A stretch of 64,000 nucleotides of DNA from Tetracentron sinense (Eukaryota; Streptophyta; Magnoliopsida; Trochodendrales; Trochodendraceae), in assembly GCA_015143295.1 (NCBI GenBank), contig CM026560.1, positions 4,342,501-4,406,500 of the forward strand, given 5' to 3'. The notes under the pieces were generated by a model, which searched no databases, had not been told where the DNA came from, and saw nothing but the letters and a program-made list of their open reading frames with translations. Of the stretch, positions 2,056 to 61,200 are shown in pieces. The translations under genes and the position numbers were made by a program. Position 1 is the stretch's first letter, and every line of letters begins with the position of its first letter.

Positions 2056-2067
2056 GCTTTGATACCA
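2056..2067 (-). promoter_or_regulatory. Primer-binding site, initiator Met-tRNA
   Basis: The minus strand reads TGGTATCAAAGC, matching the 3' end complement of plant initiator Met-tRNA with one mismatch to the usual TGGTATCAGAGC. It sits 2 nt inside the LTR end, as expected for a copia 5' LTR, and fixes that LTR boundary. Confidence 0.85.
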
Positions 2068-2069
2068 AT

Positions 2070-3183
2070 TGAAATATATCCAGATCTATGATCTCTAAGA
2101 CCTAGAAGGGGGGTGAATAGGTCTATCTAAAAATTTCTAACCAATTTTAATTTTTCAATTAATATGTTTAGAAATCAATGAACATAATACTCAGACAATC
2201 CACACAAATCAAACATAGAAGATTTTACGTGGAAAACCCTAACGGGAAAAAACCACGAGACCTCGTCCAGTAACAAACTTCACTATGAAAAGATATCAAG
2301 TACAAGACAAGACCTTACCAAAACAGAAACGACGTTCCTAGGTATAGACTCTTCCTCTTGATTTCCACGAACCAGCAGGTTCGATCTCCGCCGTAGCAGC
2401 TTCGGTTCCACACCGACCAAATCTTCTCAAGCTACTTCAAACCACGATCACACACGATCGATCTCCTTCCACGAAGGCTCCGGATCAAACACCGGACACA
2501 CACAGAAGTTGTAGGGTTGTGAATCAATTTATGAAATTTCAAACCCTAGAGGGATCTCATATAGATTTGTGATCACACAATGCAAGATCAAAGGTTTAGA
2601 TCTATACTTGCATTCTCTAGGATCAAAGAAAGAGGAGGGATCAACAAAGATCTAATAAAAGCAATAAGAAAAACCCTAGAAGAGTTTCTCAGACCTCTAC
2701 TCTTTCAAAAATATCAAAGACACGAATTAGGTCTCCAAAAATTTGTTTATATAGGGTTTAAAAAAAGAATCCAGAAAAAGAAAAATTCTTTTTACGGGGA
2801 CCGATCGATCGGTGCTCACTACCGATCGCTCGGTTATAAATCATCTCTCTGGAAAAATAGCCCATACAAACTTTTTGTCCAGTCGATAGCCACCGATCGC
2901 TCGGTAGGCCACCGATCGATCGGTCCCAATACCGAGCGATCGGTTGAGACAGAATTTTGTTCAAACCATATGTCTTTTCATGTTTATTTGATTCAACTAA
3001 GATCAAACAATTTTGTTAGGTTTAAAACTATCCTCCTAGGTATGTTTAGAGTTATCTAAGCCAAAACCAACCTAGGTAGGGGTCTCTAAGTCCATTACCT
3101 ATCTAGATCCAGAGTAGAAGCTTTTTCTTCTCTTTCTTCAATCTTCTTTAAGCTTTAGCTCTTCTCTTCTGACAAGTTGAACA
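2070..3183 (-). mobile_element. Copia 5' LTR (about 1.1 kb)
   Basis: The left boundary (TGAAATAT at 2070) is fixed by the adjacent primer-binding site. The right boundary (TTGAACA ending about 3183, so TGTTCAAC on the element strand) is the most likely TG/CA end but is not confirmed, because the other LTR is outside the window. It contains the CCTAGAAGGGGGGTGAATAG stretch common in plant copia LTRs, a TATA box on the minus strand (TATATAAAC, 2745-2753) and a cluster of 14-bp palindromes upstream of it. Open frames seen inside it are not genes. Confidence 0.75.
2800..2944 (-). promoter_or_regulatory. Palindrome array upstream of copia LTR TATA box
   Basis: Five 14-bp units lie at 2800-2813, 2821-2834, 2892-2905, 2911-2924 and 2931-2944. 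They read ACCGATCGATCGGT (first and fourth), ACCGATCGCTCGGT (second and third) and its reverse complement ACCGAGCGATCGGT (fifth). Start-to-start distances are 21, 71, 19 and 20 bp. On the element strand the array lies about 47 bp upstream of the TATA box. The positions are seen directly; a role as a protein-binding array is inferred. Confidence 0.6.
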
Positions 3184-12992: not shown

Positions 12993-13463
12993 TGTAGAGA
13001 CCCGAATCTTTTCAGGCTTTTTACGCAAGTATTAGGGGTATTATAGTCCTTGTAATGTTTTAATGCTTGTGCAATTATATTTAATTAGTGTGGTGTGATC
13101 TAGGCTTAATCAAAGTTGTAAAGAGAGGGAAGCCTTAACACACTCATAACTTTAGGAAGCTCTAGTTTTGTCACCGTTTATCATAATTGAGTGATTCGTG
13201 TTTAAGGTTTTTCCAAATTTTGAGTCTTAGCTAAGTCAAAAGTGGGTTTTCCAATGTTTTGTCTGCTGAAATTGCAGACCAGTCAGTTTTAGTGCCCATT
13301 TAAACCTTTAAAAACTATAAATTAGGATTTTTATAAAACATCAAAGTTATTCCCCTTCGAAATACAAGTCTAACGTAAGTTAAATTGTCAAAATCCGATG
13401 AGCGAGTGAAAAATTATGATCAAAATACCAAAATGAGGTAAAAATTAATTGGAATCAGGGGCT

Positions 13464-13590
13464 GCAATTTATCGCAATGTGGGTGCGATCGATCGCAATC
13501 TATGTGCTATCGATCACATTCAGTCGATTTCAGGGTTTTTGCTTCGGGTCTAAGTGCAATAGATCGCACTATAGGTGCGATCGATCGCAA
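13464..13590 (+). promoter_or_regulatory. Palindrome array upstream of gypsy LTR 1 TATA box
   Basis: Five 14-bp units start at 13464, 13485, 13506, 13556 and 13577, so spacings are 21, 21, 50 and 21 bp. The second and fifth are perfect TGCGATCGATCGCA. The others are degenerate, mostly through changes at CG dinucleotides (for example TGCAATAGATCGCA). The last unit ends 52 bp before TATAAATA at 13643. LTR 2 (units from 20497) and LTR 3 (from 27688) keep exactly the same spacing. Confidence 0.65.
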
Positions 13591-14478
13591 TCGCACCAGA
13601 ATTTTTTTTTGGTTGCGATTTCGGGGTTTTGAACCCCTAGGCTATAAATAGAGGTTCTATTTGAGGGTTTTAGTGTTCTAAACCATTTTCTAACCTAATT
13701 TGGCAAAGGAAAAGAGGAAACCTAGGGTTTTAAGGGAGAAATTGCTTGCAGAAGAAGGAGATTGCAAGGAGAGCTTGGAGATCTTCCTCAAACCTGCTTG
13801 GGAGCAATTTGGATCCAAGGGAAGGATCCCTAAAGTCGATATACTATCCAAATCAACTATATTATAATTTTTTATGAATGTTAATATGATAGAAATGGTA
13901 GAAATAGAGATTAGATGTATTTTTCCCCAATTTTGTATGAAGTAAGCTATTATGGATAGAAATATGGTTAAATAATGTGAATGGAATGTATGGAGGATGG
14001 GAAATACTATGGAGGATGGGATGAATGTGTGGATGTGGATTGTATTTGAGTTGTATGGATGGATTATGGTTTGATGAAATGTTGGAAATGTGAAGGGCAG
14101 TGGATTCATAATCTATGTACCCAAAATGTTTGTGAAAATGCTTGAGAGGATAAATACTAATATATTACTACGGAATTGTTGGAAATTGATTATAAATTAT
14201 GCTAAAAATCATGATAAGATATATATATGTTATTATTTGTTAAGTTATGCTTAATTACATGCATGGTAATTGATATTCGGAAAAGCAAAAATTTTGAGGA
14301 AAATCTTTCAAACCGGGAATTCTCTAACTATATGGTATGGGACATCATAATGGAGTTTCCATGGTGAGAGATCGGAATCTAAATGATTACCAACTCAAAT
14401 GTTAATTGCGACACTTATGCGCAAACGCACGTGTATGTGAAGATAAGAGTCTCACAAGTCACACATGTAGACCACAAG

Positions 14479-14790
14479 CATAAACATTGCATACGCCTGT
14501 CATTCTGAATAAGCCCAATGAGGGATCTGAATAAGTGCGTGTTCTAAATAAACCGTTCAAGAATCATTAGCATAAGCATGACATACGTTTGACATTTTGA
14601 ATAAGCCCATTGAGGGATCTGAATAAGTGCATGTTCTGAATAAGCTGCTCAAGACTCATAAGCATAAGCATGGCATACGTATAACATTCTGAATAAGCTC
14701 ATTGAGGGATCTAAATAAGTGCATAAGCATCTCACAAGCACGTGTCTCATAAGCATAAGCATCTCATAAGTATGTTGTCTTCTAAGTCTA
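14479..14790 (+). repeat. 92-bp tandem repeat inside gypsy LTR
   Basis: CATAA(A/G)CAT recurs at 14479, 14571 and 14663, an exact 92-bp period. Each unit contains GAATAAGCCCA(A/T)TGAGGGAT or a close variant, and a truncated fourth unit follows. The same repeat is in LTR 2 (about 21506) and LTR 3 (about 28706). It lies about 830 bp downstream of the TATA box, so within the transcribed part of the LTR. Confidence 0.8.
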
Positions 14791-15360
14791 AGGTTCTCAC
14801 AAGTATTCGAGTCAAGATGATGATATGATGTATATGAGCACATGTTCTTCCGCACATTGATTATGTTATTATGCTATTGGATATGGTTCTAACTAAGTGC
14901 AGGTATACTATGTTGTTAGTTGGATTTTATATACACCGAGTACTTTTGTACTTAGCCAGACTTTTATCATGGTAGGTTTAGAGTAGGAGCATACGGCGGA
15001 GCCGTGGATTGAGGAGGCTTATATCGAAGGAGGAGAAGAAGGTGAGCCCATCGAGGAAGGAGCCAGGGTCTTGGGTGGCTACACCTATTAGTTTATGTTT
15101 TTTTTGGTTGAAGGATTTTGTAATAGACATTTTAGATGATGTTGCTCATTAGATTACTTTACAGTGGGTATTAGTGAGTGGTTATGTTGAGCATAGACTT
15201 GAGCAGGATGACTTGGTTTTATATATATCGAAATTTTATTACTCTCATTTTTGGAGACTCGTGTAGTATGCCTTGTATGTATGGATTTTTAAGCAGGTTA
15301 AGGAAATGTGACGATTCCAAAGTCCTATTTTAGCCTTGTAGGATTTTGGGGTTACAGAGG

Positions 15361-15372
15361 TGGTATCAAAGC
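15361..15372 (+). promoter_or_regulatory. Primer-binding site, gypsy copy A
   Basis: TGGTATCAAAGC follows the LTR 1 end after GAGG, matching initiator Met-tRNA priming. Copy B has TGGTATCAAAAC at 22404-22415. Confidence 0.85.
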
Positions 15373-15557
15373 GCAAGGCATTAGAGTCCTTAGGGCTAAG
15401 GTATTAAGCATAGGATAAGGGGATTTGTCTAACTTAGGAAGGCAACATCAAGTCTAGGACTTAGACTAGTCTTAAGTTTAAGTTGAAAGCTATCAATATC
15501 TTTTGAATGATTTCTAAGAGATGTGTGGTTTATCATTGACTTCAGGATTTGCAAGTT

Positions 15558-16719
15558 ATGAGGAGAGGTGCGAGGAATAATAGGAATGGAGGAGACAGTG
15601 TGATTGATGGGGATACTCCAGATGGTGCCCGCCAGCCCAATGAGAGTCGGGCTATGGAGGCTATTACAAAAGCCATGACTAAAATCATGGCGCAGCAGAC
15701 TGCCTTGCTAGCAGCCAGGTAAGAGAGGCCAGCTGAGGTACACCCACCCCGACATCATAGAGTGGAAGCATTCAGGAGGATGGTTCCTCCAGCTTTTTGT
15801 GGGAGTACTGATCCTTTGGTAGCTGAGTGGTGGATCATACAGATAGGGAAGATATTCTCTGTGCTCGAGCCTACCGAGAATCAGAGAGTGAAGTGGGCCT
15901 CCTTTGTCATGGAAGGAGAGGCGAAACATTGGTGGAGGTCCACGACCAGGAAGAGAAATGAAGAGAGAGTAGGATAGTCATGGACATGGGGAGAGTTCCT
16001 CGATGTATTTTATGAGTAGTACTTCCCGACTTCAGTGAGAGAGCTGAAGGAGATTGAGTTTTTCACTCTACAGTAAGGGAGCATGTCAGTGGCCGAGTAT
16101 GAGGCCAAGTTCACTGAGCTGTCTAGGTACGTGCCTCATTTGATTACCACAAAAAGCATGAAGGCGAGGAGATTTGAGAGGGGTCTCAGAGACTACATTA
16201 GGGATAGGGTTGAGATCCTGCATCTTGAGACTTGCTGGGAAGTTAGTGAGAGAGATTTGATCGCCGAGAGGAGATCGGCGGAGTTTTTGAGGAAGAGAGG
16301 AATGCAGATAGATAGACAAAGACTGCAGGACAAGAGGCCAAGGACATCAGGTCCAATGCCGATTGCTAGGCCTACCTCATATCAGAGGCCTACTCAAGTT
16401 GCCCCACCTACTGCTGGGACTCAGTTGTATGATGTATGCAGCCAGTATGGAAAGAGGCACAGAGCAGGAGAGTGTAGGGCAATTACTGGAGGTTGTTTTC
16501 ATTGTGGAGATGTTTCACACCGTATGCAAGATTGCCTAATCCGCATTCAGCAGGGGTTTCAGCCGACCCAGCCACAGGGAATCAGGCCACCGATGAGGCA
16601 GCCGATGCAGCAGAGGCCACCCCAGGGCCCGAGACCACAACAGCCGCGCCAGCCAGCTCAGGGTCGGGTGTTTGCCACATCGGAGCAGGATGCATAGGCG
16701 TCCGATGACGTTGTGCAGG
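15558..16719 (+). pseudogene. Gypsy copy A gag
   Basis: The frame opens with ATG at 15558 (MRRGARNNRNGG), in the same frame as the long open stretch at 16083-16697. It includes the retrotransposon Gag core (WASFVMEGEAKHWW, then SVAEYEAKFTELSRYVPH) and a CCHC knuckle with CFHCGDVSHRMQDC near 16495-16536. A Gln/Pro/Arg-rich tail follows. At least five in-frame stops interrupt it (about 15720, 15975, 16017, 16074 and 16693). The last one is shared with copy B, so it predates the duplication or was spread by conversion. Confidence 0.85.
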
Positions 16720-16862
16720 GTACGTGTATTTTTGATTTAGTTAATTAAAATGTTATTATGATGCTATGTATGTGATGTTAAATATTATACATGAATATAC
16801 TTGATGTATGATGTATGTATATATTCATGATTTGACAAAATTAGTTTTGTGTATTAATTCAG
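16720..16862 (+). other. Putative GT-AG intron between gag and protease (copy A)
   Basis: Gag ends ...GTTGTGCAGG, followed by GTACGT, and the AT-rich segment ends TGTATTAATTCAG before GCTCATTG. Removing exactly these 143 bp joins VVQ-G to SLLINDFLAHVLIDTG in the Gag frame, restoring the usual Gag-protease junction of this lineage. Without removal the frame stops within about 10 codons. The same segment lies at 23783-23925 in copy B. Confidence 0.6.
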
Positions 16863-19800
16863 GCTCATTGTTGATAAATGATTTTCTCGCTCATGTATTG
16901 ATCGATACTGGGTCTACTCACTCCTTCGTCACACCTAGTTTTGCACGAGAGTTTTTGATGGAGTCAAGTTTGTTAGACCGTGAATTGTCGATCGTCATTC
17001 CTGTTGGTAGTTCAGTCATCACCGATAAGGTCTATCGAGCTTGTGATATTCGAATAGGTCAGAGAGAAATGCCAGCCGATCTGATTGTCCTTGAATTCCA
17101 AGACTTCGACGTCATATTAGGCATGGATTAACTTTCCAAATATCATGGGCATTTGATTTTTTTTGGGAAGGTAGTCAACTTTAGGCCAATCAGTGAGCCC
17201 TCTTTTCGTTTCCAAGGGTTGAAGAAGAAAGACTTAGCTCGTTTTGCGGCATTGAGTCTTTCTATCTCGGAAGCATCAAATTCCTCAAGTATCCCTATTG
17301 TAGAGGAATTCATTATTGTCTTTCCAAAAAACTTGTGGGATTCACCGCCGGATAGAGAAGTAGAGTTTACAATTGAGTTAGCTCCGGGTATGGTACCCAT
17401 CTATAAAGCTCCATATAGGATGGCTCCAGCAGAGTTGAAAGAGCTAAATGAGCAGATTGATGAATTGCTTGATCTTGGATTTATCCGCCCAAGTGTATCA
17501 CCTTAGGGAGCTACGACATTATTTGTGAAGAAGAAAGATGGTTCGATGAGGATGTGCATCGACTATCGGCAATTAAACAAAGTCACTATCAAGAACAATA
17601 TCCTTTACCAAGGATCGATGGTTTGTTTGATCAGTTGTATGGAGCAAAGTATTTCTCCAAATTGATTTAAGGTCGGGCTACCATCAGTTGAAGATTAAAG
17701 TGGATGATATCCCCAAGACTGCTTTCCGAACCAGATATGGGCATTTTGAATATTTAGTCATGCTGTTTGGTTTGACAAATGCTCCGGCAGCATTCATGGA
17801 TCTCATTAACAGAATCTGCAAGCCGACTCTTAATCGCTTTGTGATTGTGTTCGTGGATGATATTCTAGTGTACTCCAGGACACAGAAGGAGCATGAGATG
17901 CACCTCTGTGTCACACTGAAAACACTCCGTGAGCATAAGCTATATGCTAAGCTCAGTAAGTGCGAGTTTTGGCTAGAAAAGTTAGCATTTCTAGGCCATG
18001 TAGTGTCGACAGAGGGGATTTCAGTTAATCCTGCCAAGATAGAAGCAGTGGAAGGATGGGGAAGGCCAAAGAGTGTTACAGAGGTTCGAAGCTTCTTGGG
18101 CCTAGCTAGATATTATCAGAGATTTGTAGAAGGATTTTTCAGCTTGGCAGCTCCACTCACTCACCTAACTCGAAAGAACACCAAATTCGAGTGGAATGAG
18201 AAATGTGAGAAGAGTTTCCTTGAGTTGAAGAAGCGTCTCACCACCACTCCGATCTTGACTGTTCCATCCGGTAGTGAAGGTTTTTTGTTGTATACGCCTC
18301 ACTCATTGAGTTAGGTTGTGTTCTTATGCAACACGGGAAGGTGATTGCCTATGCTTCGCGGCAGTTGAAAGACCATGAGAAGAATTGTCCTACCCATGAT
18401 TTGGAGTTAGCAGCTTTAGTCTTTGCTCTCAAGATCTAGAGACACTACTTGTACGGTGCGTAGTTTGAAGTATTCACCGATCATAAGAGTCTAAAGTATT
18501 TCTTCTCGTAGAAAGAGATTAATTTGAGGTAACGCCGTTGGGTGGAATTCCCCAAGGATTATGATTGCTCTATCCAGTACTACCTAGGGAAAGCAAATGT
18601 GGTGGCAGATGCTTTAAGTAGGCGATTTACTGGGTTCTTGGCACACTTGATGGTCAAAGAATGGAAGCTATTTGAAGGAGTGTCTAGCCTTGATGCGGGT
18701 TTCAGTGTTGTAACGTTTGGAGCTTTGTTGGCTAACATTATGGTCAGGCCAACCTTATTGGACAGGATTAAAGACCTGCAGTGGAATGATGGAGAACTGC
18801 ACGCTGCCATGAATAAGTCGCTTAGCAGTGGGTTTGAGGATTTCTCTTGGAGAGATGGTGGAGTTTGTTTCAAGGGTTTCTCTTAAGAAGTTTTTCTGGT
18901 GGAAGAAGGATGTGGCTACCTTTGTATCCAAGTGTTTGGTGTGTCAGCAAGTGAAGGCCGAACACAGGAGACCGGCAGGACTTCTTCAGTCTCTTCCTAT
19001 TCCCGAGTGGAAGTGGGAAAATATCTCCATGGATTTCATTGTTGGTTTGCCAAAGACGGCCAAGAACTTTGATGCCATTTGGGTTGTGGTTGACCGATTG
19101 ACTAAGTCAGCTCATTTTCTTCCATATCGGACCACTTTCAACTCCAATCAATTGGCTAACCTCTATATCAAGGAGATAGTCCGTTTGCATGGAGTGCCAG
19201 TTAGCATTGTTTCTGATCGAGACCCGGATTTACAATCCAGATTTTGGAAGATTTTCAGCAGTGTCATGAGTTCCCGTTTAGAATTTCAGTACGACATTTC
19301 ATCCGTAGACCAGATGGACAAACTGAAAGGGTAAACCAGATCATAGAGGACATGCTACGGGCTTGCATGTGTAGACTTCCAGGGCAGTTGGGATGATCAC
19401 TTGCCGTTGGTTGAGTTGCCTACAACAATAGCTATCAGGCGAGTGTTTGAAATGGCTCTAGTCGAAGCACTCTATGGGAGAAGTTGTCATTACACTTTTG
19501 TGTTGGGGATGAAAGTTGGGCGAGCAGAAAGCTTCTGGGTCCCCGAGCTCGTTGGTCAGACTGTGGATAGACTTCAGTTGATCGGGGAGAGGTTGAAAAG
19601 CAGCTCAAAGTCAGGCAGAAAATGCGATGCCGATACTCGCATGAGGGATTCTTGAGTGTCCAAGTCGGAGATTTTGTGTTTGTCAAGACTCTCACCTACG
19701 AAGGGGTGGATGAGATTCGGCAAGAGGGGCAAGCATCAGTCCGAGTATGTGGATCTTTTGAGATCATACCCACCCCAGGGTCATAGAAGTTGCTTACCGA

Positions 19801-19986
19801 GTCAACTTTAACCACTCACATGGCAGGTGTGGCATAATGTCTTCACATCTCTATGTAGAGGAAGTATATTTCGGATCCGTCACATGTCATTCATTTGGAT
19901 CCCTTGGAAATTCGGGAAGATTTGACTCTAGTGGAGCAATGGGCTAAAATCTTGGACCGGAAGGAGCAAGTCTTGCATTCTAAGGC
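16863..19986 (+). pseudogene. Gypsy copy A pol: protease, RT, RNase H, integrase
   Basis: Protease carries the aspartic motif LIDTGSTHSFV (about 16893-16925) and stops at 17129. Reverse transcriptase follows with [15 protein letters not shown] and the catalytic FVDDILVYS (about 17850). RNase H has lost its DASLIGLG-type active-site segment through a deletion near 18290. Integrase shows the zinc-finger part CLVCQQVKAEHRRPAG (about 18930) and core (MDFIVGLPK, VVVDRLTKSAHF, SIVSDRD). Frameshifts and stops are frequent, and from about 19200 many single-base insertions relative to copy B appear. It is cut at 19986 inside the chromodomain region, with no polypurine tract. Confidence 0.85.
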
Positions 19987-20029
19987 CATATCAATAAATA
20001 AAAAGAGGAACATGACTTCTTCTTGAAAC
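19987..20029 (+). repeat. Duplicated 43-bp host flank
   Basis: This 43-bp segment starts CATATCAATAAATAAAAAG and ends TCTTGAAAC. It is an exact copy of the DNA left of LTR 1 (12950-12992). It replaces the polypurine tract expected before LTR 2, and marks the breakpoint of the 7-kb duplication. Confidence 0.9.
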
Positions 20030-22399
20030 TGTAGAGACCGAATCTTTTCAGGCTTTTTACGCAAGTATTAGGGGTATTATAGTCCTTGTAATGTTTTAAT
20101 GCTTGTGCAATTATATTTAATTAGTGTGGTGTGATCTAGGCTTAATCAAAGTTGTAAAGAGAGGGAAGCCTTAACACACTCATAACTTTAGGAAGCTCTA
20201 GTTTTGTCAACGTTTATCATAATTGAGTGATTCGTGTTTAAGGTTTTTCCAAATTTTGAGTCTAAGCTAAGTCAAAAGTGGGTTTTCCAATGTTTTGTCT
20301 GCTGAAATTGCAGAACAGTCAGTTTTAGTGCCCATTTAAACCTTTAAAACTATAAATTAGGATTTTATAAAACATCAAAGTTATTCCCCTTCGAAATACA
20401 AGTCTAACGTAAGTTAAATTGTCAAAATCCGATGAGCGAGTGAAAAATTATGATCAAAATACCAAAATGAGGTAAAAATTAATTGGAATCAGGGGCTGCA
20501 ATTTATCGCAATGTGGGTGCGATCGATCGCAATCTATGTGCTATCGATCACATTCAGTCGATTTCAGGGTTTTTGCTTCGGGTCTAAGTGCAATAGATCG
20601 CACTATAGGTGCGATCGATCGCAATCGCACCAGAATTTTTTTTTGGTTGCGATTTCGGGGTTTTGAACCCCTAGGCTATAAATAGAGGTTCTATTTGAGG
20701 GTTTTAGTGTTCTAAACCATTTTCTAACCTAATTTGGCAAAGGAAAAGAGGAAACCTAGGGTTTTAAGGGAGAAATTGCTTGCAGAAGAAGGAGATTGCA
20801 AGGAGAGCTTGGAGATCTTCCTCAAACCTGCTTGGGAGCAATTGGATCCAAGGGAGGATCCCTAAAGTCGATATACTATCCAAATCAACTATATTATAAT
20901 TTTTTATGAATGTTAATATGATAGAAATGGTAGAAATAGAGATTAGATGTATTTTTCCCCAATTTGTATGAAGTAAGCTATTATGGATAGAAATATGGTT
21001 AATAATGTGAATGGAATGTATGGAGGATGGGAAATACTATGGAGGATGGGATGAATGTGTGGATGTGGATTGTATTTGAGTTGTATGGATGGATTATGGT
21101 TTGATGAAATGTTGGAAATGTGAAGGGCAGTGGATTCATAATCTATGTACCCAAAATGTTTGTGAAAATGCTTGAGAGGATAAATACTAATATATTACTA
21201 CGGAATTGTTGGAAATTGATTATAAATTATGCTAAAAATCATGATAAGATATATATATGTTATTATTTGTTAAGTTATGCTTAATTACTAGCATGGTAAT
21301 TGATATTCGGAAAAGCAAAAATTTTGAGGAAAATCTTTCAAACCGGGAATTCTCTAACTATATGGTATGGGACATCATAATGGAGTTTCCATGGTGAGAG
21401 ATCGGAATCTAAATGATTACCAACTCAAATGTAATTGCGACACTTATGCGCAAACGCACGTGTATGTGAAGATAAGAGTCTCACAAGTCACACATGTAGA
21501 CCACAAGCATAAACATTGCATACGCCTGTCATTCTGAATAAGCCCAATGAGGGATCTGAATAAGTGCGTGTTCTAAATAAACCGTTCAAGAATCTTAGCA
21601 TAAGCATGACATACGTTTGACATTTGAATAAGCCCATTGAGGGATCTGAATAAGTGCATGTTCTGAATAAGCTGCTCAAGACTCATAAGCATAAGCATGG
21701 CATACGTATAACATTCTGAATAAGCTCATTGAGGGATCTAAATAAGTGCATAAGCATCTCACAAGCACGTGTCTCATAAGCATAAGCATCTCATAAGTAT
21801 GTTGTCTTCTAAGTCTAAGGTTCTCACAAGTATTCGAGTCAAGATGATGATATGATGTATATGAGCACATGTTCTTCCGCACATTGATTATGTTATTATG
21901 CTATTGGATATGGTTCTAACTAAGTGCAGGTATACTATGTTGTTAGTTGGATTTTATATACACCGAGTACTTTTGTACTTAGCCAGACTTTTATCATGGT
22001 AGGTTTAGAGTAGGAGCATACGGCGGAGCCGTGGATTGAGGAGGCATACGTCGAAGGAGGAGAAGAAGGTGAACCTTTAGAGGAAGGAGCCAGGGGTTTT
22101 GATGGCTACCCCTACTAGTTTATGTTTTTTTTTGGTTGAAGGAATTTTAATAGACTTTTAGATGATGTTACTTTTTAGATTACTTTACAGTTGGGTATTA
22201 GACTATTTGTTTATTATGGGTGGTTATGTTGAGCATATACTTGAGCAGGATGACTTGGTTTTATATATATCGAAATTTTATTACTCTCATTTTTGGAGAC
22301 TTGTGTAGTATGCTTTGTATGCATGGATTTTAAGTAGGTTTAAGTAATGTAACGATTCCAAAGTCCTATTTTTAGCCTTAGGATTTTGTGGTCGTTACA
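20030..22399 (+). repeat. Gypsy LTR 2 (chimeric)
   Basis: From 20030 to about 22053 it matches LTR 1 nearly perfectly, apart from about ten 1-base deletions, mostly in homopolymers (for example AGAGACCGAATC against AGAGACCCGAATC). From about 22053 it switches to an LTR 3-like sequence, including TATTAGACTATTTG. Palindromes start at 20497, 20518, 20539, 20589 and 20610, and TATAAATA lies at 20677-20684. Confidence 0.85.
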
Positions 22400-22599
22400 G
22401 AGGTGGTATCAAAACCCAAGGCATTAGAGTCCTAAGGGCTAAGGTATTAAGCATAGGATAAAGGGATTTGTTTAACTTAGGAAGGCAACATCAAGTCTAG
22501 GACTTAGACTAGTCTTAAGTTTAAGTTGAGAGTTATCAATATCTTTTGAATGATTTCTAAGAGATGACTGGTTTTGATTGACTTCAGGAATTACAAGTT

Positions 22600-23782
22600 A
22601 TGAGAAGAGGTGTAAGGAATAATAGGAATGGAGGAGGCGGTGTGACTAATGGGGACACCCCAGATCGAGGGTGCCCGCCAGCCCAATGAGAGTCGGGCTA
22701 TGGAAGCTATCGCGGCAGCCATGGAGTGGCAGGCCGAGATCATGGCGCAGCAGACTGCCTTACTAGCAGCTGGGCAAGCCAGGCAAGAGAGGCCAACTGA
22801 GGTCCACCCACCCCGACATCACGGAGTGGAAGCATTCAGAAGGATGGGTCCTCCAGCTTTTTGTGGGAGTACTGATCCTATGGTAGCTGAGCAGTGGATC
22901 ATGCAGTTAGAGAATATATTCTTTGTGCTCGAGCCTACTGGGATCAGAGAGTGAAGTGGGCCTCCTTTGTCATGGAAGGAGAGACGGAGCATTAGTGGAG
23001 GTCCGCAGCCAGGAAGAGAAATGAAGAGAGAGTAGGATAGTCATGGACATGGGGAGAGTTCCTCGATGTATTTTATGAGTAGTACTTCCCGACTTCAATA
23101 AGAGAGCTAAAGGAGATTGAGTTTTCCACTCTACAGCAGGGGAGCATGTCAGTGGTCGAGTATGAGGCCAAGTTCGCTGAGCTGTCTAGGTTCGCGCCTC
23201 ATTTGATCACCACAGAGAGCATGAAGGCGAGAAGATTTGAGAGGGGTCTCAGAGACTACATTAGGGATAAGGTTGAGATCTTGCGTCTTGAGACTTGTCG
23301 GGAAGTTAGTGAGAGAGCTTTGAACACCGAGAGGAGATCGGCGGAGTTTTTGAGGAAGAGAGGAATGCAGATAGATAGACAAAGACTGCAGGACAAGAGG
23401 CCAAGGACATCAGGTCCAATGCCGATTGCTAGGCCTACCTCATATCAGAGGCCTACTCAAGTTGCCCCACCTACTGCTGGGACTCAGTTGTATGATGTAT
23501 GCAGCCAGTATGGAAAGAGGCACAGAGCAGGAGAGTGTAGGGCAATTACTGGAGGTTGTTTTCATTGTGGAGATGTTTCACACCGTATGCAAGATTGCCT
23601 AATCCGCATTCAGCAGGGGTTTCAGCCGACCCAGCCACAGGGAATCAGGCCACCGATGAGGCAGCCGATGCAGCAGAGGCCACCCCAGGGCCCGAGACCA
23701 CAACAGCCGCGCCAGCCAGCTCAGGGTCGGGTGTTTGCCACATCGGAGCAGGATGCATAGGCGTCCGATGACGTTGTGCAGG
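22600..23782 (+). pseudogene. Gypsy copy B gag
   Basis: It begins with ATG at 22600 and has the same domain order as copy A, including the CCHC knuckle near 23558-23600 and the Gln/Pro tail. It diverges visibly from copy A up to about 23327, then is almost identical to it (16265 onward in copy A). Small indels and stops break the N-terminal half, and the shared TAG lies at 23756. Confidence 0.85.
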
Positions 23783-23925
23783 GTACGTGTATTTTTGATT
23801 TAGTTAATTAAAATGTTATTATGATGCTATGTATGTGATGTTAAATATTATACATGAATATACTTGATGTATGATGTATGTATATATTCATGATTTGACA
23901 AAATTAGTTTTGTGTATTAATTCAG
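23783..23925 (+). other. Putative GT-AG intron between gag and protease (copy B)
   Basis: It has the same 143-bp GTACGT...TTCAG segment as copy A at the same place, and its removal restores the Gag-protease frame. Because this tract is nearly identical between the copies, it is not independent evidence. Confidence 0.55.
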
Positions 23926-26900: not shown

Positions 26901-27140
26901 TGTAGAGGAAGTATATTTCGGATCCTTCACATGTCATTCATTTGGATCCCTTGGAAATTCGGGAAGATTTGACTCTAGTGGAGCAATGGGCTAAAATCTT
27001 GGACCGGAAGGAGCAAGTCTTGCATTCTAAGGTCATTCCTCTTGTACTCTTACAATGGGAGTATCACTCTAGAGAAGAGGCTACTTAGGAGAGAGAAGCC
27101 TAGGTCCGCGAAAAGTACCCACACTTGTTCACCTAAGGTA
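23926..27140 (+). pseudogene. Gypsy copy B pol with chromodomain remnant
   Basis: In order there are protease (LIDTGSTHSFV), reverse transcriptase ([23 protein letters not shown] near 24915), RNase H ([12 protein letters not shown] near 25355), integrase zinc finger (CLVCQQVKAEHWRPAG near 26005) and core (VVVDRLTKSAHF near 26150, YDRDPRFTSRFW). A C-terminal chromodomain-like part follows (LQWEYHSREEAT near 27050, YPHLF near 27120). Stops and frameshifts are scattered throughout. Those at 24192, 24567 and the frameshift near 24730 are shared with copy A. The RNase H active-site segment missing in copy A is present here. Confidence 0.85.
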
Positions 27141-27167
27141 CGTAAATTTCGAGGACGAAATTATTTT

Positions 27168-27177
27168 AAGGGGGGGA
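27168..27177 (+). promoter_or_regulatory. Polypurine tract of gypsy copy B
   Basis: AAGGGGGGGA directly precedes the TGTAGAGACCC start of LTR 3. Just upstream is ATTTCGAGGACGAAATT, a conserved pre-polypurine motif in Tekay/Del-like elements. Copy A has neither. Confidence 0.85.
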
Positions 27178-29603
27178 TGTAGAGACCCGAATCTTTTCAT
27201 GCTTTTTATGCAAGTATTAGGGGTATTATAGTCCTTGTGATGTTTTAATGCTTGTGTAATTATATCTAATTAGTGTGGTGTGATCTAGGCTTAATCAAAG
27301 TTGTAAAGAGAGGGAGGCCTTAACACACCCTGAAATTTAGGAAGTTCTAGTTTTGTCACCCTTTATTAGAATTGAGTGATTCTTAAACCATTAGAAAGGT
27401 ATTGGAACCCTCTTTGAGGTTCGTGTTTAAGGTTTTTCTAGATTTTGAGATTAAGCTAAGTCAAAAGTGGGTTTTTCGATGTTTTGTCTGCTGAAATTGT
27501 AGACCAGTCAACTTTAGTGCCCATTTAGACCTTTAAAAACTTAAAATTAGGATTTTTGTAAAACATCAAAGTTATTCCCCTTCGAAAGAAAAGTCCAACA
27601 CAAGTTGAATCGTCAAAATATGATGAGCGAGTCAAAATTTATGATCCAAATACCAAAATGAGGTAAAAATAAATCGGAATCAGGGGTTGCGATCTATTGC
27701 AATGTGGGTGTGATCGATCGCAATCTAAGTTCGATCGATCGTATTCAGTCGATTTCAGGGTTTTTGCTTCGGGTGTAGGTGCGATCGATTGCAATGTAAT
27801 TGTGATTGATCGCAATCATGCCAAAAAAAAAAATTAGTTGCGATTTCGGGGTTTTGAACCCCTAGGCTATAAATAGAGGTTCTGTTTGAGGGTTTTAGGG
27901 TTCTAAATCATTTTCTAACCTAATTTGGCAAAGGAAAAGAGGAAACTTAGGGTTTTGAGGGAGAAATTGCTTGGAGAAGAAAGAGATTGCTAGGAGATTG
28001 TAAGGAGAGTTTGGAGATCTTCCTCAAACCTTCTTGGGAGCGATTTGGATCCAAGGGAAGGATCCCTAAGGTCGATATACTATCCAAATCAACTACATTA
28101 TAATGTTTTATGAATGTTAATATGATAGAAATAGAGATTAGATATATTTTTCCCCAATTTTGTATGAAGTAAGCTATTATGGATGGAAATATGGTTTAAT
28201 AATGTGAATGAAATGTATGGAGGATGAGAAATACTATAGAGGATGGGATGAATGTGTGGATGTGAATTGTATTTGAGTTGTATGGATGGATTATGATTTG
28301 ATGAAATGTAGGAAATGTGAAAGGGCAATGGATTCATAATCTACGTACCCAAAGTGTTTGTGAAAATGCTTGATAGGATAAATACTAATATATTACTATG
28401 GAATTGTTGGAAATTGATTATAAATTATGCTAAAAATCATGATAAGATATATATATGTTATTGTTTGTTAAGTTATGCTTAATTACATGCATGGTAATTG
28501 ATATTCGGAAAAGCAAGAATTTAGAGGAAAATCTTTTAAACCGGGAATTCTCTAACTATATAGTATGGGACATCATAGTGGAGTTTCCATGGTGAGAGAT
28601 CGGAATCTAAACGATTACCAACTCGAATGTTAATTACGACACTTATGCACAAAAGCACGTGTATGTTAAGATAAGAGTCTCACAAGTCACACATGTGGAC
28701 CACAAGCATAAACATTGCATACGCCTGTCATTCTGAATAAGCCCAATGAGGGATCTGAATAAGTGTATGTTCTAAATAAACTGCTCAAGACTCATTAGCA
28801 TAAGCATGACATACGTTTGACATTTTGAATAAGCCCATTGAGGGATCTGAATAAGTGCATGTTCTAAATAAACTGCTCAAGACTCATAAACATAAGCATG
28901 GCATACGTATGACATTTTGAATAAGCCCATTGAGGGATCCGAATAAGTGCATAAGCATAAGCATCTCAAGCACGTGGTCTCATAAGCATAAGCATCTCAT
29001 AAGTATGTTATCTTCTAAGTCTAAGGTTCTCACAAGTACACGAGTCAAGGTGATATGATGTATATGAGCACATGTTCTTCCGCACTCTGATTATGTTATT
29101 ATGTTATTGGATATGGTTCTAACTGCGTACAGGTATACTATGTTGTTGGTTGGATTTTATATACACCGAATACTTTTGTATTTAGCCAGACTTTTGTCTT
29201 GGTAGGTTTAGAGCAGGAGCATACGGCGGAGCCGTGGATTGAGGAGGCTTACGTTGAAGGAGGAGAAGAAGGTGAACCTTCAGAGGAGGGAGCCAGGGGT
29301 TTTGATGGTTACCCGTACTAGTTTGTGTTTTATTTTGGTTGAAGGAATTGTAATGGACTTTTAGATGATGTTGCTCTTTAGATTACTTTACAGTTGGGTA
29401 TTAGACTATTTGTTTATTGTGGGTGGTTATGTTGAGCATATACTTGAGCAAGATGACTTGGTTTTATATATATCGAAATTTTATTACTCTCATTTTTGGA
29501 GACTCGTGTAGTATGCCTTGTATGCATGAATTTTAAGCAGGTTTAAGTAATGTGACGATTCCAAAGTCCTATTTTAACCTTGTAGGATTTGGGGGTCGTT
29601 ATA
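27178..29603 (+). repeat. Gypsy LTR 3 (2,426 bp)
   Basis: It starts TGTAGAGACCCGAATC and ends GTTATA, where the others end GTTACA, a likely C-to-T change. It is several percent diverged from LTR 1 and has a 51-bp segment around 27390-27420 that LTRs 1 and 2 lack. Palindromes start at 27688, 27709, 27730, 27780 and 27801, and TATAAATA lies at 27868-27875. Confidence 0.9.
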
Positions 29604-31888: not shown

Positions 31889-32491
31889 GTTGAGGGAGGC
31901 CTGGGGATCCAATCGTAAGTTTTTGGCTCGAATTGCAGTGAGCGATCAATCAGCCAAACAGTGGCCGATCGATTGGTGGTCGGGTGATCGATCGGTGGTC
32001 GGGTGGTCGATCAATTGGTGACTTGGGCAGTTGATCGGCCACTTATGGCCGATCGATCGGTGGACGCCAATGATTTCTGAGAAATTCTTAAATATCAGTT
32101 TTAGAGAGTTTTAACTTTAGGAAACTTCTATTTGGGTAGAGTTTTGTTTCCTCTTGTGTTTGAAGTCTCTTTTGGGCTATAAAAGAGAGGCTTGGGGTTA
32201 GGGTTTGTAAGAAGAGAAAAGTAAGGTTGTCATAGCTAGGGTTGGTTTGAGAGAACAAGAAGATTTTGAGAGAGAGAGCATTGTGGGCTTTCCTTGGGGT
32301 TTTGATCTTCGTTGTGGATTCTTCTCTTTTGTATTCTTCTCTTGGATTAGTGAAGATTTTGGTGTGCTGTGACCGTGGACGTAGGCATTTAGGCCGAACT
32401 ATGTAAATCTTGCTTTGTGGTGTGTTTTTCCTTTTTGTTATATTTATTTCTCATTGTCGTTTATTCTATCCTAAGGAGTTTCCGCACAACA
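31889..32491 (+). mobile_element. Solo copia-type LTR (about 0.6 kb)
   Basis: The segment runs from TGTTGAGGGAGG to GCACAACA. It holds a palindrome array (31941-32060), a TATA box (TATAAAAG, 32178-32185) and the CGTGGACGTAGGCATTTAGG stretch typical of the leader in many copia LTRs. No primer-binding site follows, so it is solo or truncated. Borders are best guesses, and no target-site duplication was found. Confidence 0.55.
31941..32061 (+). promoter_or_regulatory. Palindrome array upstream of LTR TATA box
   Basis: Six palindromic or half-palindromic units have centres at about 31947, 31970, 31989, 32012, 32034 and 32054, giving spacings of 23, 19, 23, 22 and 20 bp (mean 21.4). The best are GCCGATCGATTGGT and GGCCGATCGATCGG. 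The TATA box lies about 120 bp downstream. Confidence 0.55.
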
Positions 32492-43200: not shown

Positions 43201-46200
43201 CGATTTTTTATGATTGCATCCCCTTGTTGCAATAGAGCTTAACACTGCATCCATTTGGGAGTCATTCAGATTGAATGAGTGTAAATCTGCTCGCAAATTT
43301 GAATCAGCAACATTGTAATCTTCCCGATGAGTGCATAGAGTGCAATTACCACCAACCTGTCAAAAATAAATGTAATCAAAATCAAGGATCCATGTAATAA
43401 ATTTCATTTATGTAGTTCAAAACAAAATTTATACTTATAATTCTAAGGTGGTGCGCATTGTAAACTTGTGGAATTGTTAAAGCGTAAGATACCTTACATC
43501 TGTCTTCTCCTTTTATATATTTATACAGATTTACAAGTTTGAGTGATAACAAATCACATAGAGAAAAATAAGGAATTTACAACAGAATAGGATATGTTTA
43601 GTTTCCTTTGATTTAGGTAACTTCTTTGTGTAGGAGTCTGTAGGAATAGAAGGAGATTAGTATTCATGACTATCGGTTATGTAGAACCCCGGATCTTGGG
43701 TTCACTATGTGGTGAATAGTGCAGTGAATAGTGTTGGAATGACCAAAAGGCCCTCCTCCTTGTATTTTGATGTTTGATGAATGAATGGGGGTTTAATATC
43801 AAATTAAGGTGTAATGAGTATTTGAGAATGGTCCTAAGGGTGTTAGAACAAGAGTGGAAACACTCTTAAGTATCAAAAGATGGAAAAAAGGAAAGAACAG
43901 GAAAAAATGGCAAAGATGCATAGAGGCTGGTCGACTGCCCCTCCTAGGCGGTCGACCACCTGTATGGAAGTGGCCCAAAATGGGGCCACGGTAGGATTTT
44001 TGAGAAGGCCGGTTGAGCGCCCCTCATAGTTGGTCGACCGACTGTCTCCAAAAAGGGGATTTCAAGGGGTTTACAAATTGCCGGTCGACCGACTGTGGGT
44101 TTTTCAGGCCATTTTGCTTGGCCAACCTACTTTATGCTTTATGGGATATTTTGGGGGCCTTTTGGGTGTTTCACCAAACCCCAAAGGGGCTATATAAACC
44201 CTATTTCGTGGGCAAAGGGTTACACAACCCTTCGAGCAAATTTGAGAGAAAAAAAAGAAGAGAAAAGAGAGAGAGAAGAAAGGAGGTTTGGCTTGAGCTC
44301 AAGGTTCTGAATGTCGATATCACTCGACATGACGAGCTGCCAAAAAAAGATATATAGAAGATATATCGAAAAATATATCGTTTATCGGTGATTTTTGGAA
44401 TTAGCAAAAAATTGGGCAAAATATGAAATTTTGCAATGAAAATTCAGGAAATGTTAAAATAGATGTTAATATACCTTTTAGAATAAAAACATTGAAAAAA
44501 ATAATAATGTACCTATGAAATGCAATGAGAAGACAGCAAAGATGTGCGTTGACGAGTGACAATAACGCATGATTGATTCATGTTTAATTCATTTCTTAGT
44601 TAATCATAAATTCATAATTTATAAGATTCATAATATTAAAAATATACATAATCAACTCCTATCGAACTTTTTTTTGTAATGATTATCCTTGTTAACATAT
44701 TTAAGTAATATTCAGTATTTTATATATCATTGTTAGTGAAATAAGTTATGTTATTTGATGATTTGATCGATGTTACTATGTATATTACTTAAAATTATTA
44801 GCTATTAATAATAATATAACATTGTTCAAATTCTTAACTAAATATTATATACATAAATTTCAAGTATAATCCTTAAAATAAGAAAAAGGTCTTATATTAA
44901 AACTTTTAATACTTTTTTTTAAATTGGGGTATATAAATCAATATTATTGAATCTTAACCATAGTTAAAGGGAGTTAAAAGGGAACATGTTAATTTTTTAA
45001 AAAAATTGTAAAAAACCAAAGTTAGATGTGTTAGAGAATCTTAAGCATCTAACCTTGGTTATTAGAAAAAAAATTAGAAAAGATAAATGTGTCCCTTTTT
45101 AACATCTTTAACAATGGTTAAGATTCATTCACCCTTAGGGTTAAAATATCTAACCTTGGTTTTTAGAAAAAAATAAAAAAAATATAATTTAACATGTCTC
45201 TTAATTCCTTTTAACCATGGTTATGGTTCACTAACCCATAGGATTAAAGCATCTAACCTTGGTTTTTAGAAACAAAAATTAACGTGTCATTTGATTAACC
45301 ATAGTTCAAGAGCAGTTAAAGAGACTTTGTAAGACTATAAAATATCTTAAGAGCATAATAGTCATTTGATTAACAATTACAAGGGAAAGTCTAACGGAAC
45401 TATGGATTGAGGTTCTTTGTCTATTGGAACAATGAGTTAATTTGCAAAACTGTTATAGATAACAGTGTATTTGTAAAGTGGGGGAGAATGTAGCAGCTGA
45501 TATGCAAAAAACCCCTTAAAACAATAAAAGAGAATGTTATTAACAGAGTGAAGTTAGCATAACCCTTTTTAGGGTTTAAACCAAGCCTTTCGAATCATTC
45601 GACGATTTCAGGAGCAAACCCAAAAAAAAAAAGGAGCATTGCAGAGCTCGGAAATGAGGAAGAGGGGAGAGAGGGGTACGGCGAATCGGCGATGGCTTTG
45701 CAATCGGTGAAGGCGAGGCGATGGCACAGGTATGTACCCACGGCCAAAACCCTCTTCTTCCTTCTTTCTTCTCTACTATCTACGCTCGTCTCAAACCCTT
45801 TTTTTTTTTTTTCTAAATCAAGTGTCAAGATTGATTTCTCTACAACTGCAAAAAATGGGGGATTTTAAAAAAAAAAAACTTGATTCATGGGTCTTGGTCT
45901 TTATTGGTGGGTTATCGGCAATATATCGTCGATAACCCACAATATCATGTAATTTTTTCTTTACACGGTATAGATGTGTCAGAAGGTGGCGACACCGAAA
46001 AATATCGGCGATATATCGCCGATATTCTCGATATTTAGAACCTTTCTTGAGCTTGGGTTTTGATCCAAAGTCCGTTCTCGCTAGCCGAAGTCCATTCTAA
46101 AGCGCTCGATCGTAGGGAAACAATCCTAGAAAGGTAGATACACTCTACTATGTGATTTTGTTGTAATTCTTATTGAAAAACCAATATATTAAGTATGAAA

Positions 46201-58200: not shown

Positions 58201-61200
58201 CTTGTACTAAAAATATCTTATTTTTCCTTCCACATTTTCTCTTCTTCATGAAGCAACCAAATTACCCTTGCATCTCAAGATCATTCATTCATGCAAAGGC
58301 ACAAAATAATCTAGTGAACATTACCAAGTCCACTAAGGGTTGTGCATTGTAACACCGTCACACACACAATATATATAGTGTATGTATGACCGACCTTGTA
58401 CATGTAATCAAGGTATCTAACCATTTCTGCAAGAGTAGAACAATTAACCTTACATGTGTTCCCTTCCATGTGGTTGGTTTTCGATTCTCACCAGGGATTT
58501 TTAAATTACCCAAATACCCCCTTTTTCTATTTGTAAGTTATCAAGTGATTCAAACCACCCCCACGAGGACATGTCTCCATGACTACATCACACAACTAAC
58601 GCAAGTAGCTTTTCTACACATGAGATTAGGACTAACAATTCTATTGTAAATAAGATACACAAAGTTGCAACCAATAGGTTGCACGACCATGACTCCCCAA
58701 ACGAACAGCTTGGAATTCCCTCAAACTAACACCTTTAATGGAGTCCAAATCTTTTAGGAGGTTCATACTACCATTTTTGTTATCCAGAATCACATACCAA
58801 CTAAATGTTGGGAATCGCGCAACAAGCCCACAACACGATAACCGGAAAAATATAAACAGAGAAACACAAACAATCACACAACTCAATATATTACGTGGTT
58901 TGAATAATGATGCCTACGTCCACGGATCCACACCACTTCACTATGCTCAAAGGAAAAACCAAATCGAAGCAATACTATTGGGATAATGAAACCCTAATTC
59001 CAAAGTACCTTTTATACTAGGGCCAAAACAAGCTTCAAAAAGGACTCAAGAGACCCAAAAATGTTGGGGGGCATTCAAACCACCGAAGGGGGCGTTCGAA
59101 CGCCCATGATGAGAGTTGGGCGTTCGATCGCCCGAGAGGGTCGTTCGAACCCCATTGTTGCAAAATTCTTTCTCTGTAGAGACCCAAAATTTAATTTTTT
59201 GGTATTCGTGTCACTTAATTTAATCTTCTCGGTTGTCGTGACTAATTTATTACATAAGTTTAAAATTGGAACAATTAAAGTAGCATAAAGCGAGTTTTAT
59301 AAATTAACAAGTGAAAATAGACGAAATCGCCTCTCTATCAACGTATGGGCATTTTGGTCATTTAAAGTCACTTTATGAAAATTTTAAGGTAGATTCTTTA
59401 ATGTCCTAAAGTATCTACGGTTCATCTTGTGAACTTAATCCGATAAAAATTGACCTCTCTAGAATTTTTCATAGTTCAGTGGCATAATCATAAATACGCA
59501 GAAATTATAAATAGTGCGTGAATAGTAATCCGAGAAACCCCAAACTCGATTTTTAGCGTCCCTATTTAACCTATTATTGCCCAAAACTTATTAGGTTTTT
59601 ATTGAGAGAGTTGAGAGAGCTATTCTTGAGTATTCTAGGGGTTTTCAAAGGGAGAAGACCTAAAGATTTGTTTATAGAAGAAGGAAAATGGCTTAGAGAT
59701 CAAGAAGCATTCTTTGAAGATCAAGATTTGATCTTTTAAGATAAAGAAGCATTGTTGGAGATCAAGATCCAACTATTCTAAAGTACTTCAATCGTAGGGA
59801 AGTGGTCTTGAGAGGTAAAAGTACAACTTTTACTAACAATTAAAATTAATATATATTTTGTAAGATTTGAATAACAATAGATCTAATTGTTAAAGATGAA
59901 AAACAATGATTTGATTGATAAGTTATAAGATACATAATTTATTCAAAGAATTTATACTAGGTATGGAATATATTTGATTTAAATTCTCACTAATGATTCA
60001 TATTAATGATCTATGTTTACGATTAAATATTGAGTATATTTAATACGTTTGATTTTACACAAATGAGAATGGATTTAATATTGAATGACATGATCTTGAG
60101 AAGTTCCAAATATTATTTTAAGTAAAAGAGAATTAAAAATGTTAGTTTTTATGATTTAATGAATTATTGAGAATTGATTTACATGATTTGCAATGAGTTA
60201 TTAAATTATTATTAACCCGTGAGTGTTAAATATTAGCTCGTGGACGTTAAATATTAGCCCATGAATGTTAATTATTGTTTTTATGAAATGCATGTGGTAA
60301 GTCTATTTGTATATGCATGTATTGTGATTTAATTTCAGAATGGTGAATGCTTAGGTTACCTTAACTTAGATCTTTTGCCTTAATGCAATGGGACGTTTTG
60401 GTAGGGTTTCAAAGATGAGAATTGTAGTCTAAGGGCTAATCCTAATGAAAGTGGATCACACCACTTGCACAAGTCTCACTTGCAGGGGTCATTGTTAAAA
60501 GTCTCATAAGCATAAAAAGTCTGAAAACCAAAGAAAACACTTTAAGGTACAACTGGAAGAACGATCATGTCGACATGTGGTGCTATGCTAACGATCATGT
60601 TCGGCATGTGGTGATATGATAACGAGCATGCTACGGCATGTGGTGCTATGTTAATGATCATACTTCGGTATGTGGTGTTATGATAACGATCATGTCCGAC
60701 ATGTGGTGGTTAAGAACTTGTAAAGAACTATAATGAATGGTAAAGACTGCACTAGTCTCAATGTTGCTCAAGTCTGCATGAATGCTGATATGATTTTTTA
60801 AATGCATGTATTGTTATTAAATTGAAAAGCATGCTAATGATCTAATATTTGTTCAAAGTTTTTCACACTCTGATTAATATGTATTGAAAAGCATGTTTAT
60901 GGGATTTGGTCATGGGATTAATTATGACCTTTTTTTATTCTGTTCTTATTTTATTGGAGAAATTTTCAGGTTCATAATTTAATTATGCCTATTATTGTTT
61001 TATGTTAAGGATGTTATGCAGTGTCATGGTCCAAAGTCCCTTTTTGACCAATGGGAGATTTGGAGCGTTACAACTTACAATCTCTGCCTTGGCTGTCCCA
61101 TCAAGTCAAGTCTCCCTATCCCATCACTAAAATGTGACATGTGTCCATTTTTTCAATATAAATGTGAGCATTTTCTAAAGCTCGGTTGAGTCAACAGGAA

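Follow-up and report, generated by a model that had tools for sequence, protein, structure and literature searches.

Palindrome arrays upstream of TATA-like boxes in five LTR families

We examined a 64-kb stretch of the Tetracentron sinense genome (hereafter the window; GC 37.5%), in which the long terminal repeats (LTRs) of five retrotransposon families carry arrays of short palindromes. The families are named F1 (at 2.8 kb, minus strand), F2 (at 13.5 kb, with sister LTRs at 20.5 and 27.7 kb), F3 (31.9 kb), F4 (43.9 kb) and F5 (59.1 kb, minus strand). Each array consists of 4-6 palindromes or near-palindromes of 14-16 bp (boxes), and 7/7 of the LTRs with an array have a TATA-like box 53-257 bp downstream of the dyads. 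The features are listed below; all TATA-like boxes were picked by eye.

1343-2035: F1 copia gag, beyond the LTR end and primer site
2056..2071, minus strand: end of the F1 LTR and primer site, CA/ATTGG/TATCAAAGC, a 15/16 match to the published Sirevirus junction
2744..2753, minus strand: F1 TATA-like box, with the nearest dyad 53 bp away
2800..2944, minus strand: F1 array, five boxes at 2800-2813, 2821-2834, 2892-2905, 2911-2924 and 2931-2944
12993..15356, plus strand: F2 LTR1, about 2.36 kb, TGTAGAGACCC...TTACA, then primer site TGGTATCAAAGC at 15361
13463..13589, plus strand: F2 array of LTR1 (TGCGATCGATCGCA), boxes at 13463-13476, 13484-13497, 13505-13518, 13555-13568 and 13576-13589
13643..13650, plus strand: F2 TATA-like box of LTR1
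20497..20623, plus strand: F2 array of LTR2, same sequence as the LTR1 array
27688..27814, plus strand: F2 array of LTR3, the five positions as in LTR1, apparently decayed independently
31941..32061, plus strand: F3 array, boxes at 31941-31954, 31964-31977, 31983-31996, 32006-32019, 32026-32039 and 32048-32061
32178..32185, plus strand: F3 TATA-like box
43926..44093, plus strand: F4 array, core CGGTCGACCG, boxes at 43926-43939, 43947-43960, 44008-44021, 44029-44042 and 44080-44093
44191..44197, plus strand: F4 TATA-like box
59008..59016, minus strand: F5 TATA-like box
59069..59154, minus strand: F5 array (GGGCGTTCGAACGCCC), boxes at 59069-59084, 59090-59105, 59118-59133 and 59139-59154

Perfect palindromes of 12-16 bases have their dyads at 2806, 2917, 13490, 13582, 20524, 20616, 32054 and 59097, with imperfect ones between. 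The F1 boxes comprise two copies of ACCGATCGATCGGT and three of a one-mismatch variant, one of which is inverted (the reverse complement of the other two), while F3 has GCCGATCGATCGGT and forms with 1-5 mismatches. An earlier note on this DNA had described palindrome arrays upstream of the TATA box in five families, and this was borne out by a scan that assumes no motif, in which any 14-bp near-palindrome (at least 6/7 pairs) with at least two near-copies inside 220 bp was accepted. The scan returned 10 clusters in the window, namely 7 LTR arrays covering all five families and 3 clusters outside LTRs, and 40 windows shuffled in 1-kb blocks yielded no array cluster. As its settings were picked after the arrays had been seen, it is a strong description rather than a blind test. 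Of the clusters in the window, 7/10 are at LTR promoters and 3/10 elsewhere.

TCGA-centred sites with at least 4/5 further arm pairs occur 20 times in the window, compared to 2.9 expected and no more than 6 in any of 100 dinucleotide shuffles. Of these, 15 fall in arrays, or 10 when a single F2 LTR stands for all three sisters. With 5/5 arm pairs the count is 7 against 0.15 expected. AT-rich centres are also in excess (TATA, 30 vs 7.0; ATAT, 24 vs 8.8; TTAA, 26 vs 11.8) and AGCT slightly so (10 vs 4.1, shuffle maximum 9); by the same window-wide count, no CpG-centred core other than TCGA is. The seven arrays, which total 913 bases, hold 27/182 of the TCGA words. A central TCGA shared by all palindromes, as previously claimed, is exact in 15/25 boxes (one LTR per family), and the other 10 deviate, with centres TCGC, GCGA, TTTA, TAGA, TCAA or TTGA. 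The five palindromes were also said to differ from one another. F1, F2 and F3 nevertheless have the core CGATCGATCG in common, all 8 occurrences of which in the window lie inside their arrays, so there are three core types (CGATCGATCG, GGTCGACC and GTTCGAAC) rather than five.

We also counted near-palindromes of any core per LTR over the 250 bp that precede the TATA-like box and compared them with 500 base shuffles. F1 (5) exceeds the shuffle maximum of 3; F2, F4 and F5 (3 each) equal it; F3 (1) lies within the shuffles. In the proposed shuffle check, made within this window, shuffled windows gave no arrays, and the count per LTR was in excess in one family. The strength of the arrays is in the likeness of their boxes and their spacing, not in mere palindrome number. 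The arrays, 86-168 bp long, have CpG observed/expected ratios of 0.77-1.57, compared to 0.54 for the window; the F5 array stands at 1.19, but its flanks reach 0.99.

Spacing of the boxes

Placing boxes by comparison with the best palindrome of each family, we obtained centre-to-centre gaps of 21, 71, 19 and 20 bp in F1; 21, 21, 50 and 21 in F2 (the same in the three sister LTRs); 23, 19, 23, 20 and 22 in F3; 21, 61, 21 and 51 in F4; and 21, 28 and 21 in F5. A weak match with five mismatches at 13526, which would split the F2 gap of 50 into 14+36, was omitted, and an F3 box with five mismatches was retained. The gap lists and their clustering at 21 bp reproduce those reported before, apart from two F3 gaps that are in swapped order. 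Among the 20 neighbour distances (one LTR per family), 8 measure exactly 21 bp and 15 fall within 19-23 bp. When boxes were placed at random in the same spans, with a 14-bp minimum, the means were 0.83 and 4.14, respectively, and 0/20,000 trials reached either count. Leaving out one family at a time kept 5-8 exact and 10-13 near gaps among 15-17 (counts, for which no P was computed), and the motif-free scan, which is stricter and passes fewer sites, had 7/16 gaps at 21 bp and 10/16 at 19-23 bp by hand count.

The best common period, over a range of 9-12.5 bp, is 10.2 bp (0/3000 trials equally strong). For the five longer gaps alone (71, 50, 61, 51 and 28), P = 0.07, or 0.005 with 28 removed post hoc, so phasing of the long gaps is only suggestive. 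The proposal that the dyads may face one side of the helix finds its support mainly in the 21-bp gaps, a pitch far above random.

Boxes, flanks and decay

In F1, the boxes are 93% alike and the 4-base flanks on each side 21% alike. Considering this contrast together with the inverted box, it is the box itself that was kept, not a larger repeat; simple tandem duplication as the sole origin was rejected on account of the same flanks. The boxes of F2-F5 are 69-84% alike and their flanks 40-47% alike (F5 boxes are 16 bp, so the F5 flank takes in one box base per side).

The arrays, their position and pitch, and the independence of F1 boxes from their flanks are seen directly, and so are the F2 differences, whose pattern is consistent with decay from a near-perfect state. 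The F2 array has the same sequence throughout in LTR1 and LTR2, while LTR1 and LTR3 differ at 13/70 box positions. At 13/13 of these, one copy keeps the consensus palindrome base (LTR1 at 7, LTR3 at 6), a count that is not fully independent because the consensus was derived from the LTR1 and LTR2 boxes. Ten of the 13 changes are C-to-T or G-to-A, and 1/70 positions is non-consensus in both copies. The simplest reading of these sequences is that the F2 ancestor carried near five perfect boxes and that the copies then decayed separately.

Between LTR1 and LTR2 there is no difference in the promoter region and there are 53/2223 in the rest, as if by local conversion. Positions 12993-29600 of the window hold a gypsy LTR-internal-LTR-internal-LTR arrangement with a period of ~7.03 kb.

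Identity and relatedness of the families

We provisionally consider F1 a Sirevirus, judging by the copia gag downstream, the 15/16 match of its LTR-end junction to Sirevirus and a stretch rich in C close to the end of the LTR. Named relatives of the gag, among 120 listed of 6079, come from ash, almond, apricot, olive and blueberry. F2 is assigned to Ty3/gypsy by its predicted reverse transcriptase (RT). Its RVT_1, RVP_2 and RNase H matches are above cut-off, with Ty3_capsid, integrase zinc-binding and rve below it, and no chromodomain match was found in the nine pieces scanned. The RT is 46-70% identical to its relatives among the 120 listed of 7996 scored; the named ones in that list are mostly plants (e.g. 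Tanacetum, Solanum, melon), with a few contaminated-looking bacterial records. Judging by the relatives of these two proteins, the window is angiosperm DNA. Contigs labelled Streptomyces, Mycobacterium and other bacteria (L009-L013) encode RTs 55-66% identical to the plant gypsy RT and are probably plant contamination. For F3-F5, the open frames scanned nearby gave no retroelement match; because these families were placed by signatures read by eye, the protein evidence for arrays in both superfamilies consists of F1 and F2.

The five families had been called otherwise dissimilar. In agreement, we found no cross-family DNA matches among them at 1e-8. On the other side, the F4 LTR start TGTAGAACCCC resembles the F2 LTR start TGTAGAGACCC, and F3 and F5 have the 16-nt CCGTGGACGTAGGCAT in common downstream of the TATA-like box, so the families are not all unrelated.

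Promoters and clusters outside the pattern

Two further LTR-type promoters were searched over 250 bp ahead of a TATA-like site, and neither has an array there. One belongs to a short copia-type LTR pair (43459-43635 and 46851-47022, 87% identical; primer-like site at 46850), for which the search zone may extend past the LTR; the other follows a gypsy-type LTR start at 59175, placed by eye, and its TATA-like site is itself poor. The three clusters outside LTRs are as follows.

42541: gaps 3, 132, 36 and 105, within a coding repeat
45217: TTAACCATGGTTAT, gaps 59, 42, 61, 42 and 42
54407: gaps 71 and 19

The TTAACCATGGTTAT-like palindromes with gaps 59, 42, 61, 42 and 42, at 45055-45301, lie outside any recognised LTR, and their gap of 42 is 2 x 21. 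A perfect 24-bp palindrome, ATATCGGCGATATATCGCCGATAT, is present at 46002-46025, and telomere-like AAACCCTAGTTA-type units form an array with 10/11-bp spacing at 52969-53177. The window also has a host gene on the minus strand (40234-57334), with DUF6469, AAA_11 and AAA_12 matches over ~17.1 kb and transposon sequence between the pieces, which we take to be a SEN1/UPF1-like helicase. A 105-nt tandem repeat (35 codons) occupies 41672-42810 within its open helicase frame (41188-43359).

Pattern scans of IMG/VR returned 8, 6 and 12 loci, and 0/26 resemble a plant LTR promoter, a judgement based only on base composition, the sequence surrounding the match and scans for palindromes, without annotation. 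These loci are mostly GC-rich, several in the 6- and 12-locus sets consist of simple repeats of TCGA or CGGTCGACC type, and one (L008) has a single perfect F1-type box and no array. Protein-guided scans of IMG/VR found no relative. In a scan of genome contigs, 32 gypsy RT loci turned up, which look like contaminants of prokaryote assemblies; searching all 32 for arrays (170,900 bases) yielded two clusters (L021 and L037), neither TCGA-centred, which is weak evidence either way as U3 coverage was unchecked.

Comparison with known systems

Palindromic boxes upstream of the TATA box are already known from Sireviruses. According to the accessible part of Bousios 2010 (PMC2829016), 13 Sireviruses have such boxes, with between 8 and 32 copies in each element. 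A CGG-CCG core is found in 12/13, with Tnd-1 the exception, and the boxes form CpG islands upstream of TATA. These boxes, called RM, number 3-14 per LTR and are commonly >85% alike; they were termed Sirevirus-specific, being absent from the classic copia elements compared. The arrays described here are similar in having several dyad-symmetric repeats per LTR in all five families, clustered upstream of TATA, CpG-rich and with family-specific sequence. Two RMs in Table 3 of that article are closer still: CGGTCGACCG from Vitis is the F4 core, and ACAATCGATTGT of Tnd-1 is also TCGA-centred. Unlike the Sirevirus boxes as described there, the CGG-CCG order appears in F4 alone (F1 and F3 have CCG...CGG, F2 has GCG...CGC and F5 neither), and the carrier F2 is Ty3/gypsy, not Ty1/copia. 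We count 4-6 boxes per LTR, compared to at least 8 per Sirevirus element; ours are per LTR, as the internal regions of F1 and F3-F5 are outside the window or were not recognised, and the motif-free scan found no further array in the F2 internal region. The accessible part of the article makes no mention of a 21-bp pitch.

Arrays of repeats, sometimes palindromic, are often found in regulatory regions of various transposable element families, as stated in the accessible part of PMC10760457, citing five papers. That account thus reaches beyond Sireviruses, with motifs and spacing unstated, and lowers the novelty of our observation. In Del (Tekay) gypsy LTRs, Cruz 2014 (PMC4029996) describes variable 5' CpG islands, with none in the eudicot group. 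F2 resembles Del in that the 5' half of the gypsy LTR contains a stretch that is rich in CpG and changes fast, and in LTR length (2.36 kb, vs a Del mean of 2.19 kb in the Vitis/poplar group). Unlike that eudicot group, F2 has a short CpG-rich array, and the word "palindrome" is absent from the main text of that article. A dyad-type LTR element with a host factor is also available in ONSEN, whose heat element is bound by HSFA2 in gel shifts (Cavrak 2014, PMC3907296). Its heat motif is nTTCnnGAAn in an LTR without CG sites, according to the available text, and F5 has TTCGAA without the two spacer bases. Heat shock factor sites were for this reason rejected for F5.

In the literature searched, which mostly lay outside subscription journals, we found neither a gypsy LTR described as having such arrays nor any report of a 21-bp pitch; this is not proof of absence. 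What is new here is the occurrence in Ty3/gypsy, a TCGA centre that recurs across families, the other cores and the 21-bp pitch.

Interpretation

The most likely explanation, held with moderate confidence, is that the arrays serve as promoter-proximal enhancers in the U3 of these plant LTRs, where dimeric host activators would bind in phase on a single face of the DNA. The boxes are palindromic and therefore suited to dimers. Each palindrome would be one putative site for a dimeric host transcription factor, and dyads two helical turns apart would put dimers on the same DNA face, leading to joint binding and activation of the TATA promoter. It is in these steps (factor binding, dimers, activation, and phasing as the cause of the pitch) that we infer more than we see. 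F1-F3, which share CGATCGATCG, would probably be bound by the same or closely related factors, and F4 and F5 by others. Selection may act on the source copies that transpose, with inserted copies losing sites largely by C-to-T (or G-to-A) change. An animal retrovirus, human T-cell leukaemia virus type 1, has three 21-bp repeats in U3 with near-palindromic dimer sites; these are bZIP sites used with a viral activator, so this is an analogy only. Precedents are the Sirevirus layout (PMC2829016) and HSFA2 on the ONSEN LTR (PMC3907296), as far as the accessible parts of those articles go. A broader version, in which plant LTR promoters of both superfamilies obey a common set of binding rules (dyads centred on TCGA and placed ahead of TATA at intervals of two helical turns, whose core stays constant while the arms vary by family, all read by one co-evolving family of dimeric host factors), seems to us doubtful.

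Several observations weigh against the activator explanation. All results come from one window, and the tests are post hoc. The number of palindromes per LTR beats base shuffles in F1 only. The long gaps do not clearly hold helical phase (P 0.07), so that helical phasing rests mainly on the 21-bp gaps, and F3 has a looser pitch of 19-23 bp. The flank likeness in F2-F5 fits partial tandem duplication there. Differences between the F2 sister LTRs are denser in boxes (13/70) than in array spacers (7/58), and outside the array they amount to 30/200 in the 100-bp flanks and 170/2221 in the rest of the LTR; as the boxes vary more than their surroundings, there is no present-day conservation. Finally, at least two LTR-type promoters in the window are without an array, so arrays are not required, and the three non-LTR clusters speak against full LTR specificity.

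Three other explanations were considered. The pattern might be mutational: a 21-bp unit arisen by chance would have multiplied through slippage or unequal exchange and spread between families by recombination or template switching, with no selection on symmetry. This would account for the flank likeness in F2-F5, for GGTCGG recurring in F3 spacers, for the best boxes of F1 and F3 differing at only 1/14 positions and for the three clusters of repeated near-palindromes outside LTRs. We nonetheless regard it as unlikely, considering that F1 flanks are 21% alike against 93% for its boxes, one of them inverted, that no cross-family match appears at 1e-8, and that slippage would not be expected to give dyad symmetry in five families at a TATA-proximal site. 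An origin at the RNA level has, in our view, a similarly low probability: the boxes would pair as hairpins in 3'-LTR read-through or antisense transcripts, leading to small RNAs and silencing or to packaging, and the DNA dyads would be a by-product. All five arrays (F4 minus its first box) do fold better than dinucleotide shuffles (z -3.4 to -7.5, 0/200 each); this is not independent evidence, because any repeated palindromes fold so. Palindrome-rich LTR regions of maize Sireviruses are described as small-RNA hotspots, with hairpins too, in the accessible parts of PMC10760457 and another later paper. Hairpins leave the 21-bp distance between dyads and the site just upstream of TATA unexplained.

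We give still less credence to arrays that dock a demethylating or anti-silencing factor whose specificity shifts between families, in the manner of the VANC motif arrays of VANDAL transposons. Family-specific short motifs in the arrays and their raised CpG ratios would suit such a role, and VANC offers a precedent in the part of the literature we drew on. A candidate encoded by the elements was sought only by Pfam scans of open frames, and the internal regions are broken, not recognised or outside the window.

Should the pattern prove general across genomes, it would explain by one simple rule, open to testing, how transcription starts in several plant retrotransposons that are not related. 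It would then also point to an unnamed family of host factors with a TCGA-centred site, and a feature termed Sirevirus-specific by its discoverers would extend to gypsy elements. As transposition scatters such arrays, they could in addition serve as enhancers of nearby genes.
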